DNA of 64,000 nucleotides from a virus: positions 1-64,000 of the IMG/VR virus record IMGVR_UViG_3300023184_000035; one strand, written 5' to 3'. The notes under the pieces were generated by a model. That model was not told the origin of the DNA, did no database searches, and was given only the letters and a program-made list of their open reading frames with translations. Both the position numbers and the translations under genes were made by a program. This document shows positions 41,797-55,491 of the stretch, piece after piece. Within the stretch, counting starts at the first letter, position 1. Every line of letters starts with the position of its first letter.

Positions 41797-41804
41797 TATT
41801 TATT
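41797..41804 (-). promoter_or_regulatory. Late promoter box, AATAAATA
   Basis: Minus-strand box 19 bases before the metallopeptidase start, overlapping the stop of the GT4 gene. Confidence 0.4.
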
Positions 41805-42801
41805 ACACAACAGGCACTAAATTATCCCTAAAAATTTCCCAAGCCCTGTCCCAGTTCCACCGCTGACTGCCATCAAATACCCGATGTCTGGGCAGGAACA
41901 AACAGTCAGTAACTGCTTGTTTTAACTGAGCATTGATACAGCCTGTTATACCTTCATCTATTACATCTAATGGACCTGTAGCAGGATACGCAGCTACCGG
42001 TGTGCCACAGGCCATGGCTTCGATCATCACAATGCCAAATGTCTCCCACTGGCTGGGAAACACAAACACATCTGCCAAATTGTAATAATATGCTAGATCA
42101 GCGCCAGTTTTGAATCCCACAAACTCCACGTCAGGATATCGAGACTCTAACTCTGCACGATATGGTCCATCCCCTACCATGATCTTGCGTGAGTTGGGGT
42201 AACTCATGCCGCAGAAATCATCCAGGTTTTTTTCTTTGCTGACTCTGCTGACACACACCAGCGTGGTCTTGGCATTGGGCAAGCGTTCTCTGGGATAGAA
42301 CACAGTGCGATCAACACCGCGTGTCCAGGAAATAATTTCTCCATCAAATCCATGTGCTTTTAATTCTCGAACCATGGTGTCAGTCGTGGTCAGCACCTTG
42401 CCTGAGTGTTTGTGGAACCAACGCACTAGAGGCCAAGTAACTGCTTCAGGGATGCCAAACAGTTTTCTAAGTCCTTCTGGAAACTTAGTATGATAAGCAG
42501 TATTGTACCTATAATGACGTTTGTCAAGATATTGTCTAACACGCAGACCAATAGGACCCTCGGTGGCGATGTGGATATGATCCGGACGGATCTCCTCAAG
42601 TATCGGGCCCAGGTTCCGCGGAAAGGCAATCTTGACTTCGTTGTAGCCAGGGCAATCAACATAGCGGAACCTCCGGGGATCAAGGTATACAACACGATAG
42701 TGATCCCGAATCGCACACGCCTCAATATTTTTGTAAGTGGTAACCACGCCATTGATCTGATCCGGTAAGTTATCTGTGACTATTAAGATTGTTTTTTGCA
42801 T
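41803..42801 (-). CDS. agt: GT4 glycosyltransferase, Agt-like (glycolipid synthesis)
   Basis: 332 residues, GT-B fold. N-terminal ILIVTDNLPDQINGVVTTYK and C-terminal WETFGIVMIEAMACGTPVAA with the E-x7-E motif of family GT4. Products of this type are often annotated as GDP-mannose-dependent mannosyltransferases. Placed directly after a PlcP-type gene on the same strand (33 bases apart), it matches the known plcP-agt pair, where Agt adds a sugar to diacylglycerol to make glycolipids that replace phospholipids under phosphate shortage. The family call is sure; the Agt role rests on context. Confidence 0.75.
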   Translation of the reverse strand: MQKTILIVTDNLPDQINGVVTTYKNIEACAIRDHYRVVYLDPRRFRYVDCPGYNEVKIAFPRNLGPILEEIRPDHIHIATEGPIGLRVRQYLDKRHYRYNTAYHTKFPEGLRKLFGIPEAVTWPLVRWFHKHSGKVLTTTDTMVRELKAHGFDGEIISWTRGVDRTVFYPRERLPNAKTTLVCVSRVSKEKNLDDFCGMSYPNSRKIMVGDGPYRAELESRYPDVEFVGFKTGADLAYYYNLADVFVFPSQWETFGIVMIEAMACGTPVAAYPATGPLDVIDEGITGCINAQLKQAVTDCLFLPRHRVFDGSQRWNWDRAWEIFRDNLVPVV

Positions 42802-42834: not shown

Positions 42835-43707
42835 TCATATCGCATGGTCGCCAGCACCTGTTCGCAACTGAGTTGATTTGGGAAAACTAATTCTATTCTT
42901 CCGGGTTGATCTTGCGGATTCGTTGTGTGTACTGCTATCAATATCATCAACCACATTGTCAGTCTCCTGTGTCCACGTTACAATTTCCCATGTGCCATCA
43001 TGCCGTTCTACCAAGGCAGTGCATGATTCTACCCAGTCGCCGTCGTTCATGTATACAACGCCATCTATATCTTTGATCTCTGCGTGATGTATGTGTCCGC
43101 AGATCACACCATCAAACCCACGCTTCTTGCAGTACTGTGCAAGATTGTGTTCAAAATGAAATATAAAGTCTACTGCTTTTTTGACCCGATGTTTAAGGAA
43201 CAGGCTAAGGCTAAAGTACCCAAAACCAAAATGATGACGAATCCAATTAATCCGAGTATTGAGTCCAAGAATGAAATCATATGCTTTGTCTCCCAACATT
43301 GCCAACCACGGCGCCAGTCTAGTGATGCCGTCAAACAGATCACCGTGTACCACAAGATAGTGCTTGCCGTCGGCACCTATGTGTTCAGTTTGATTTACCA
43401 ATTCAATTATGCCAAACCCAATGCCATATTGCATGAAGGGCCTTAGAAACTCGTCATGATTACCAGCCACATATACCACACGAGTACCACGTTTGCTATG
43501 ACCCAGCACACGGCGAATGACGTTGGTGTGACTTTGTTTCCAGCGCCATTTGTTTTGTTTGATTTTCCAAGCATCAATAATATCTCCCACAAGATATAGT
43601 GTTTCGCAAGTGTTGTGTTTGAGGAAGTTGTTGAGTTTGTCAGCCTGGCTGTCTTTAGTGCCAAGATGTACGTCGCTGATGAAAATGCTGCGATAAGTTT
43701 TTTGCAT
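42835..43707 (-). CDS. plcP: PlcP-type phospholipase (metallophosphoesterase)
   Basis: 290 residues. All metal motifs of the calcineurin/LpxH group are present: FISDVHLGTKDSQAD, YLVGDIIDAWKIK, VAGNHDEFLRP, VVHGDLFDGITR, ICGHIHHAEIK. The GDWVESCTALVERHDG end and the WLAMLGDKAYDFILGLNT helix are what I recall from PlcP of rhizobia and marine heterotrophs, which cuts phospholipid headgroups to leave diacylglycerol. The C-terminal 35 residues are an extra polar tail. An LpxH (UDP-diacylglucosamine hydrolase) reading is the alternative, but the agt neighbour and the Pho-type promoter favour PlcP. Confidence 0.8.
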   Translation of the reverse strand: MQKTYRSIFISDVHLGTKDSQADKLNNFLKHNTCETLYLVGDIIDAWKIKQNKWRWKQSHTNVIRRVLGHSKRGTRVVYVAGNHDEFLRPFMQYGIGFGIIELVNQTEHIGADGKHYLVVHGDLFDGITRLAPWLAMLGDKAYDFILGLNTRINWIRHHFGFGYFSLSLFLKHRVKKAVDFIFHFEHNLAQYCKKRGFDGVICGHIHHAEIKDIDGVVYMNDGDWVESCTALVERHDGTWEIVTWTQETDNVVDDIDSSTHNESARSTRKNRISFPKSTQLRTGAGDHAI

Positions 43708-43709
43708 AT

Positions 43710-43746
43710 ATTATTTAAATCTAGATGTGTTACAATAGCATTACAA
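43710..43746 (-). promoter_or_regulatory. Pho-box promoter for plcP-agt
   Basis: Minus strand: TTGTAAT, GCTA, TTGTAAC (43729-43746), nine bases, then TTTAAATAAT as -10 region (43710-43719). Two 7-base repeats with a 4-base gap replace the -35, as in PhoB-dependent promoters. Same layout as upstream of pstS. Confidence 0.72.
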
Positions 43747-43779: not shown

Positions 43780-43787
43780 CATAAATA
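43780..43787 (+). promoter_or_regulatory. Possible late promoter box, CATAAATA
   Basis: Late-type box ending four bases before the GTG at 43792. Confidence 0.35.
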
Positions 43788-43791
43788 CCCC

Positions 43792-44433
43792 GTGAAACCC
43801 ACCATAGCCCTTTTCATATACGATCCCAAATGCTCGGTGCAGAGCGGGAATGGGGTTATTCGGGCCTTGAGCCCACATTACAACATCAAGCTATTTTCAA
43901 AAAATCGTGTGGAAGATGTGTTCTTCAATGATGTAGACATGATTGTTGTGCCCGGCGGGTTTGGTGATGCAGATAGTTATGCCAGCCTGTTCAAAAACAA
44001 CGAAAAAAAAGTCAAAGATTTTGTTGCTGATGGGGGCAGATATCTGGGCATTTGCATGGGTGCATACTGGGCAGGCAGTCACTATCTTGATGTGTTGGAT
44101 AGTGTGGATGCAGTACAGTATTTGACACGCCCGGGCACAGACACACGCAGACCACATGCCAAGTCCATTAATGTGATGTGGCGGGGTCAGGCAGATCAGA
44201 TGTTTTGGTATGATGGGTGTGCGTTAGTTGGGGATTCAACAAAGTTTGAAACTGTGAGCACATACGCCAATGGTGATGCTATGGCCATCATACAGAACAG
44301 AATTGGCCTAATTGGCTGCCATCCCGAAGCAGACCGATTCTGGTACGACAGTTACTCATGGATGCGCCGACACTGGCGTGGCGGACATCACAACGTGCTG
44401 TTACAGTTTGCTGATGAGTTGATGACGAAGTAA
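43792..44433 (+). CDS. Class I amidotransferase-like protein (BPL_N type)
   Basis: 213 residues from GTG 43792 (VKPTIALFIYDPKCSVQSGN); an ATG at 43762 would add ten residues and is possible. VPGGFGDADSYASLF and GGRYLGICMGAYWAGSHYLD show the flavodoxin-like fold with the nucleophile cysteine elbow, and GLIGCHPEADRFWYDSY the His-containing part. This fits the family named for the N-terminus of biotin-protein ligase in fungi. It may hydrolyse an amide; substrate unknown. Overlaps the convergent methyltransferase by 33 bases. Confidence 0.65.
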   Translation: MKPTIALFIYDPKCSVQSGNGVIRALSPHYNIKLFSKNRVEDVFFNDVDMIVVPGGFGDADSYASLFKNNEKKVKDFVADGGRYLGICMGAYWAGSHYLDVLDSVDAVQYLTRPGTDTRRPHAKSINVMWRGQADQMFWYDGCALVGDSTKFETVSTYANGDAMAIIQNRIGLIGCHPEADRFWYDSYSWMRRHWRGGHHNVLLQFADELMTK

Positions 44434-53125: not shown

Positions 53126-53185
53126 CCAAGCTGGTTACGAGTTCCAGCGCCGCTCTATCGTTGCGGTCGGTTTATCTAATGCTGA

Positions 53186-54365: not shown

Positions 54366-54393
54366 AGTATAACATATTATGTAGCTTTGTCAA
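54366..54393 (-). promoter_or_regulatory. sigma70 promoter for porin gene
   Basis: Minus strand TTGACA, 16 bases, TATACT; followed by AAAGGAGAAA ribosome site for the start at 54337. Confidence 0.75.
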
Positions 54394-54404: not shown

Positions 54405-55421
54405 TTATTTCTTGATCTGTGTCCAAACGTCACTGCGGATGCGATCCGTTAGTGATTTTGGCAATGGCACGTAATCAAGATCAGCAGCCATTTTACCACC
54501 ATTCACAAATGCCCAGTCAAAGAACTTGATGGTTTCTTGGCTGTTCTTTGCATTTTTTGGTTCACGGTACATCAACACAAATGTTGCGCCTGTGATGGGC
54601 CATGATTGTGCGCCCTTTTGATTTACCAAACTGATACCCATGCCTGGAACTGAGAACCAGTCTGCACCCTTGGCAGCTGACGCAAACGTTTCATCATCAG
54701 GTTCCACCCACTTGCCATCGCGATTTTGCAATTTAACATGGGTCATTTTGTTCTTTTTAGCATAAGCATATTCCACGTATCCAATTGAATTCTTCACACG
54801 ACTCACATTGGCTGCAACACCCTCGTTGCCCTTGCCACCCACACTACTGGTAGCAGGCCATTTGACAGCGGCACCCCGGCCAACTTCTTCTTTCCAAACG
54901 GCGCTGACTTCAGTCAAGTAGTCTGTGAAAATAAATGTTGTTCCTGACCCATCTGCACGATGCACCACTGTGATGTTGGCATCGGGCAATTTTACTTTGG
55001 GATTTAACTCTTGAATACGTCGGTCATTCCACATAACAATGTGACCAACAAATATCTTGGCCAAGACTTCACCAGTTAACTGTAACTCGCCAGGTTTAAC
55101 GCCTTCTACATTGATCACAGGAACAACACCGCCCAGCACTGTGGGGAATTGTACAAGTCCTGCGGCTGTTAAATCATCACCTTTAAGGGGTGCATCTGTT
55201 GCGCCAAAGTCCACTGTGGCTGCTTTGATTTGCTTGATACCACCTGAACTGCCAATGCTTTGATAGTTAAGTTCAATGCCAGCTTTTTCCTTGTATGCTT
55301 CTGACCACTTGCTATAAATGGGAAAGGGGAAGGTTGCGCCTGCCCCTGTGATTGTTTCTGAATTTGCCTGCGGGCTCATCAAATACAATGACGCCGCAAT
55401 TACTGCTAAGATTTTTTTCAT
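54405..55421 (-). CDS. pstS: PstS, periplasmic phosphate-binding protein
   Basis: 338 residues from the Met at 55421, which gives a clean signal peptide (MKKILAVIAASLYLMSPQAN); the frame continues to 55469 but lacks a ribosome site. The phosphate site blocks are GAGATFPFPIYSKW, QSIGSSGGIKQIKA, DFGATDAPLKGDDL and HRADGSGTTFIFTDYL. Captures phosphate for the host PstCAB transporter. Phage pstS is known in cyanophages. AAAGGAAC ribosome site, with a Pho-type promoter upstream. Confidence 0.95.
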   Translation of the reverse strand: MKKILAVIAASLYLMSPQANSETITGAGATFPFPIYSKWSEAYKEKAGIELNYQSIGSSGGIKQIKAATVDFGATDAPLKGDDLTAAGLVQFPTVLGGVVPVINVEGVKPGELQLTGEVLAKIFVGHIVMWNDRRIQELNPKVKLPDANITVVHRADGSGTTFIFTDYLTEVSAVWKEEVGRGAAVKWPATSSVGGKGNEGVAANVSRVKNSIGYVEYAYAKKNKMTHVKLQNRDGKWVEPDDETFASAAKGADWFSVPGMGISLVNQKGAQSWPITGATFVLMYREPKNAKNSQETIKFFDWAFVNGGKMAADLDYVPLPKSLTDRIRSDVWTQIKK

Positions 55422-55454: not shown

Positions 55455-55491
55455 ATTATTTAAACACAAAGATGTTACAGTAGTGTTACAG
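55455..55491 (-). promoter_or_regulatory. Pho-box promoter for pstS
   Basis: Minus strand: CTGTAAC, ACTA, CTGTAAC (55474-55491), nine bases, then TTTAAATAAT (55455-55464). Two perfect 7-base repeats, 4-base gap. Spacing to the -10 is identical to the plcP promoter. Confidence 0.8.

Follow-up and report, generated by a model that had tools for sequence, protein, structure and literature searches.

A Pho-box-like site at a fixed distance from a probable late-type TAAATA core precedes plcP-agt and pstS in a phage genome and in related viral contigs

Introduction

The closest described precedent for phosphate-regulated phage genes is found in the cyanophages P-SSM2 and S-PM2d, in which pstS and other genes are under the control of the host PhoBR system (PMC10976474); plcP is not mentioned in that paper. 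T4-type late promoters consist of the octamer TATAAATA and have no −35 element (PMC2988020), and the form NATAAATA is described for cyanophage late promoters (PMC2984593). Cellular PlcP is the phospholipase C that acts in lipid remodelling when phosphate is limiting (PMC9457565).

The phage described here resembles each of these systems in part. Like the cyanophages, it carries genes, including pstS, that are putatively controlled by host PhoB/PhoR, but the Pho box of the cyanophages is of the cyanobacterial kind, with a different sequence, and no fixed distance from a late core has been reported for it. The consensus repeat of the Pho box is CTGTCAT. As in the Escherichia coli phoA promoter, the phage sites comprise two 7-base repeats with an 11-base period, placed just upstream of the −10 position; however, they contain TGTAA and stand 11 bases from TAAATA, whereas phoA has TGTCA and a spacing of 10 bases to its sigma-70 hexamer, TATAGT. 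With T4-type late promoters, they share the TAAATA core, the lack of a −35 element and the use of this core ahead of virion and lysis genes, but they do not conserve the first two octamer bases and have an additional, putative host-regulator site upstream. Likewise, the gene pair plcP-agt repeats the order of the cellular lipid-remodelling operon, a calcineurin-type phosphoesterase followed by a GT4 glycosyltransferase, but is phage-encoded and has a phage-type promoter. In the literature searched, we found no treatment of plcP-agt as a viral gene pair; what appears to be new is its putative role as a phage Pho target, the composite promoter design and the occurrence of a covarying double-hairpin RNA in these cassettes.

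Materials and methods

The stretch of DNA analysed, referred to as the window, covers bases 1 to 64,000 of a virus record of 148,133 bases; the remainder of the record was fetched and analysed too. Relatives were collected from IMG/VR as the best 80 of at least 598 plcP-encoding stretches and the best 80 of 116 for pstS. A scoring matrix for the sites was trained on 49 sites from other viral contigs, with the present record left out, and a gene-blind scan of IMG/VR used the pattern TGTAAY-N4-YTGTAAY-N11-TAAATA, which occurs in at least 120 stretches. For T4 gp55 and gp45, we used the profiles phrog_234, phrog_12791 and phrog_223, plus a profile made from related contigs.

Results

Phosphate-related genes of the window

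The plcP gene (42,835–43,707, minus strand) encodes a calcineurin-like phosphoesterase of 290 residues (Pfam PF00149) with the metal motifs DVHLG, GDIID, GNHD, HGD and GHIH. Its product is 44–58% identical to bacterial relatives, most of them with the same GT4 neighbour, and scores below the LpxH cut-offs. The second gene of the operon, agt (41,803–42,801, minus strand), encodes a GT4 glycosyltransferase (PF00534/PF13692); a GT4 relative of Agt is present in 13 of 18 bacterial plcP loci and adjoins plcP in 12. By its calcineurin-type domain, metal motifs and adjacent GT4 gene, the plcP product is best assigned to the PlcP of lipid remodelling, a predicted phospholipase C. In the 33-base gap between the two genes, neither TAAATA nor a sigma-70-like promoter was seen. 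With at least 598 plcP-encoding stretches in one IMG/VR scan, plcP-agt is a widespread viral gene pair.

The assignment of pstS (54,405–55,421, minus strand) is clear: its product of 338 residues, the phosphate-binding protein of a phosphate ABC transporter, matches the NCBIfam models TIGR00975 at 380 bits (cut-off 205) and NF008171 at 418 bits (cut-off 339). Downstream of it lies a gene for an outer-membrane porin (PF13609; 53,186–54,337, minus strand), for which simple co-regulation with pstS was considered and dropped, because the porin has a strong extended sigma-70-like promoter of its own (TTGACA-16-TATACT with TG before the hexamer; 54,366–54,393, minus strand). We therefore left the porin out of the Pho unit.

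Two sites of one design

Upstream of plcP, the minus strand from 43,746 to 43,710 reads TTGTAAT-GCTA-TTGTAAC-ACATCTAGA-TTTAAATAAT. The tandem Pho-box-like site occupies 43,729–43,746; TAAATA (43,712–43,717) lies within TTTAAATAAT (43,719–43,710), 11 bases past the box and 4 bases before the ATG at 43,707. The counterpart upstream of pstS, 11.7 kb away, reads CTGTAAC-ACTA-CTGTAAC-ATCTTTGTG-TTTAAATAAT on the minus strand from 55,491 to 55,455. Here, the box spans 55,474–55,491 and TAAATA (55,457–55,462, within TTTAAATAAT at 55,464–55,455) again follows after 11 bases; a leader with AAGGAAC then separates it from the ATG at 55,421, which begins 35 bases past TAAATA. The original prediction, that plcP-agt and pstS share one promoter design, is thus borne out base for base in the repeats, the 9-base gap and TTTAAATAAT.

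A motif scan of the full phage genome, set beforehand as the check, placed these sites far from chance level. Throughout the 148,133 bases, they are the only exact matches to NTGTAAN-N4-NTGTAAN, and an exact search finds TTTAAATAAT just once more, at 134,683 (minus strand), without boxes. The matrix scores the pstS site at 47.5 and the plcP site at 42.4, against 12.2 for the next best site in the record and a maximum of 15.3 in 20 first-order random genomes, so that a chance origin is excluded. Duplication as the source of the ten common bases was also dropped, as the flanks of the two promoters have no extended homology. The site scoring 12.2, which is inside the null range, belongs to the divergent glutamine-amidotransferase-like gene next to plcP, where TAAATA stands four bases before a GTG start codon (43,782–43,794, plus strand) and a single Pho half-site is found at the right spacing.

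The spacing is fixed across related viral contigs

In the best-80 sets of relatives, a tandem TGTNA box followed by TAAATA is found in 24 of 63 distinct plcP upstream regions and in 22 of 59 for pstS. Although spacers of 5 to 16 bases were allowed, the distance is exactly 11 in all 46 of these composite sites, which stem from related phages and are not all independent. The fetched loci contain 76 distinct composite sites, 71 of them upstream of plcP or pstS. The phage repeats follow (T/C)TGTAA(C/T); the fifth base is A instead of C in 46 of the 49 sites for the first repeat and in 44 for the second.

The same association emerges when the genes are disregarded. The loci analysed from the gene-blind scan hold at least 129 distinct sites: 54 at pstS, 44 at plcP, 20 at other genes and 11 that are cut off or without a clear reading frame; judged by position only, at least 98 of the 129 are upstream of pstS or plcP. 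The other targets include genes for a Na+/Pi cotransporter (PF02690, locus L387) and a PstS-like protein (PF12849, L477). In L401, L408, L451 and L467, a membrane protein follows that looks phosphate-permease-like by eye, a label that is unproven, since the three compared with Pfam (L401, L408 and L467) have no match there. A gene starting with MRxEDLAxRL or similar also recurs behind box-11-TAAATA (L396, L405, L417, L426, L441, L027 and L090), with no Pfam match in the two tested (L396 and L405). The view that the repeats have the layout of a PhoB site is accordingly upheld insofar as they are Pho-box-like and associated with phosphate genes in many viral contigs.

Shifting the spacer by one base weakens the association. 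Over IMG/VR, the TAAATA pattern occurs in 18 stretches at spacing 10, in at least 120 at spacing 11 and in 35 at spacing 12, but only 2 of 14 distinct spacing-10 sites and none of 23 distinct spacing-12 sites are at pstS or plcP. Box-11-TAAATA offers a simple sequence rule for locating phosphate-responsive genes in viral contigs.

TAAATA is the prevalent promoter-like element of the phage

Within about 40 bases upstream of the genes of the record, no hexamer is as enriched as TAAATA, which exceeds even Shine-Dalgarno words: 34 of its 72 copies fall there, where 1.9 are expected. It also ranks first in the related loci (217 versus 26.8 expected) and, in the same kind of count, in the late region of T4, but not in the early and middle regions of T4 or in bacterial plcP loci. 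Copies without a box have almost no −35 or upstream information; they are most frequent 4–6 bases ahead of start codons and form another, broad peak at 15 to 30 bases. In the record, they precede genes for virion structural proteins, tail fibres and endolysin, and also a DNA ligase gene. Compared with the T4 late octamer, the composite sites keep TAAATA, while their first two bases vary; TATAAATA itself occurs six times in the record. The ten bases originally predicted to be a −10 region are thus better read as a phage core of the T4 late type, and the ‘−10’ of both sites is probably not a host sigma-70 element.

Two observations complicate this picture. A T at +7 is found in 23 of 31 clustered composite sites versus 98 of 229 box-free sites (p = 0.001); this base would complete AATANT, a sigma-70-like hexamer, and hints that the sites may be used in two ways. 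Furthermore, profile searches of the record found no homologue of gp55 or gp45, and the gp45 profile search matched nowhere; gp55 homologues are present in 13 of 25 related contigs. In a phmmer search with 26 T4 proteins, only gp44, uvsW and nrdA matched the record.

The distance from TAAATA to the start codon also separates the two genes. For plcP, 35 of the 44 genes in the gene-blind set start 4 to 8 bases past TAAATA, whereas most pstS genes start 22 to 49 bases past it. By this measure, the plcP mRNA is probably leaderless, unlike that of pstS, which would have a leader.

A register shift relative to cellular Pho promoters

Cellular plcP promoters were discarded as a control, 15 of 16 having no box-like site within 400 bases, and cellular pstS loci were therefore used instead. 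A plausible box is present in 13 of 30 of these, mostly with a TA-rich hexamer at spacing 10 as judged by eye. Pho boxes located in eight bacterial genomes that encode close relatives of PstS were likewise set aside, as several of the inspected matches seem to be inside coding sequence. Viral sites with TATAAT behave like the cellular ones, with 57 stretches at spacing 10 and 14 at spacing 11 over IMG/VR. Given the different spacing preferences of TATAAT and TAAATA, we distinguish two viral Pho promoter forms, box-10-TATAAT and box-11-TAAATA. The former precedes plcP at 4 of its 45 distinct sites (L269, L331, L371 and L560) and phosphate-binding-protein-like genes, judged by eye, at some of the others; its loci are also enriched in TAAATA, albeit more weakly (3.8-fold versus 9.4-fold). 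A shift of one base is expected if TAAATA corresponds to positions −11 to −6 of the T4-type TATAAATA and if the place of PhoB relative to the transcription start stays unchanged. We regard this shift as evidence, but not as proof, that TAAATA functions as a phage core.

A covarying RNA element with two hairpins near the phosphate genes

Eleven bases past the porin stop codon lies an RNA element of 45 bases (53,130–53,174, minus strand), which folds into a double hairpin, covaries across copies and matches its covariance model at 65.8 bits. It is followed by a further hairpin with a T-run, resembling an intrinsic terminator (about 53,127–53,098, minus strand). In 52 copies, all from viral loci, 96.2% of cells are paired, and the covariation score is 0.455, compared with 0.168 for shuffled and at most 0.105 for slid alignments. 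Seven pairs are doubly changed, two of them in the second helix, where three other pairs never vary. No match was found in Rfam.

A gene-blind scan for the conserved loop places 38 of 67 copies next to pstS, plcP, agt or the porin. TAAATA occurs within 14 bases upstream of 21 of 118 copies, in some cases as the end of a pstS gene; in several of these 21, a Pho box precedes the element at spacing 11 and a terminator-like hairpin follows it. The element may therefore be a PhoB-controlled phage small RNA, for which it is a candidate on these positional grounds. In the window and in L030, L283, L357, L406, L427 and other loci, it is found at the 3′ end of pstS, porin or agt genes or just before plcP; in several loci it begins only a few bases past a Pho-box/TAAATA promoter.

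Discussion

We consider it reasonably probable that both sites are composite promoters, activated under phosphate starvation, in which a predicted host PhoB site is set on the phage's own late-type core. What we infer about PhoB binding, sigma factor identity, timing and metabolic effect can be put as follows. The predicted box would cover about −40 to −23, upstream of TAAATA at about −11 to −6 and without a −35 element. Under phosphate starvation, phosphorylated host PhoB would bind the box and recruit RNA polymerase to the TAAATA core. Increased transcription of pstS would promote phosphate capture, and that of plcP-agt would lead to the removal of phospholipid headgroups and their replacement by glycolipid. 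The plcP mRNA would start at the AUG or a few bases off, that of pstS with a leader containing a Shine-Dalgarno sequence. Going further, host PhoB might directly activate the late form of the polymerase, i.e. the host core enzyme with a gp55-like sigma factor, such that a stress signal gates a late promoter; the regulon would then include the double-hairpin small RNA, apparently the only product that such a promoter yields in several related phages. We offer this extension tentatively.

Several points speak against the composite reading, namely the absence of detectable gp55 and gp45 in the record, the extra T at +7, TGTAA in place of TGTCA and the kinship of the sites. One alternative is an ordinary host promoter, with PhoB and host sigma-70 transcribing both genes early and a weak −10 element, as in cellular Pho regulons, provided by TTTAAATAAT or by the AATAAT that overlaps it; the likeness of TAAATA to a late core would then be due to chance or to A+T richness. 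PhoB promoters indeed tolerate a weak −10 element (cellular loci show TAAAAG, TAAAGT and TAGAGT), the second viral class has TATAAT at spacing 10 before the same kinds of genes, and composite sites have the T at +7 more often than box-free ones. Yet TAAATA is spaced at exactly 11 rather than 10 bases, the two hexamers prefer different registers, and no promoter element is commoner in the phage itself than TAAATA, which lacks a −35 element; together, these points make this explanation unlikely in our view. We hold it to be quite unlikely that two promoters overlap, with PhoB and host sigma-70 acting early on AATANT and a phage late sigma factor acting later on TAAATA, independently of PhoB, so that the genes are transcribed in both phases. 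For T4-like phages that lack MotA, RB49 and S-PM2 among them, an overlap of early and late promoters has been suggested (PMC2984593), and the extra T at +7 would fit; however, the sigma-70 hexamer would then be 13 bases from the box, compared with 10 in cellular sites, and independent late use leaves the invariant spacing between box and TAAATA unexplained.

A different question is whether the repeats are read by PhoB at all. Their TGTAA(C/T) departs from the usual TGTCA(T/C), and another factor could bind them, such as a regulator of the phage that recognises tandem repeats of this kind. This seems very improbable, as the repeat period of 11 bases, the placement of the repeats relative to the core and the genes concerned (pstS, plcP and the Na+/Pi cotransporter) all fit a Pho regulon. 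Moreover, no regulator of the OmpR/PhoB type was found in the record, which makes host PhoB the natural reader of the box.

With this freshwater-type phage, it becomes testable whether a phage late promoter can be driven by a two-component regulator of the host. Provided that PlcP is active during infection, the findings suggest that the host membrane serves some phages as a source of phosphate, in addition to its import. In a cultured relative, the Pelagibacter phage Mosig EXVC030M (L170, 7,915–7,995), pstS and plcP are divergent; TAAATA stands 5 bases before the ATG of plcP, with repeated CTTAAC words upstream.
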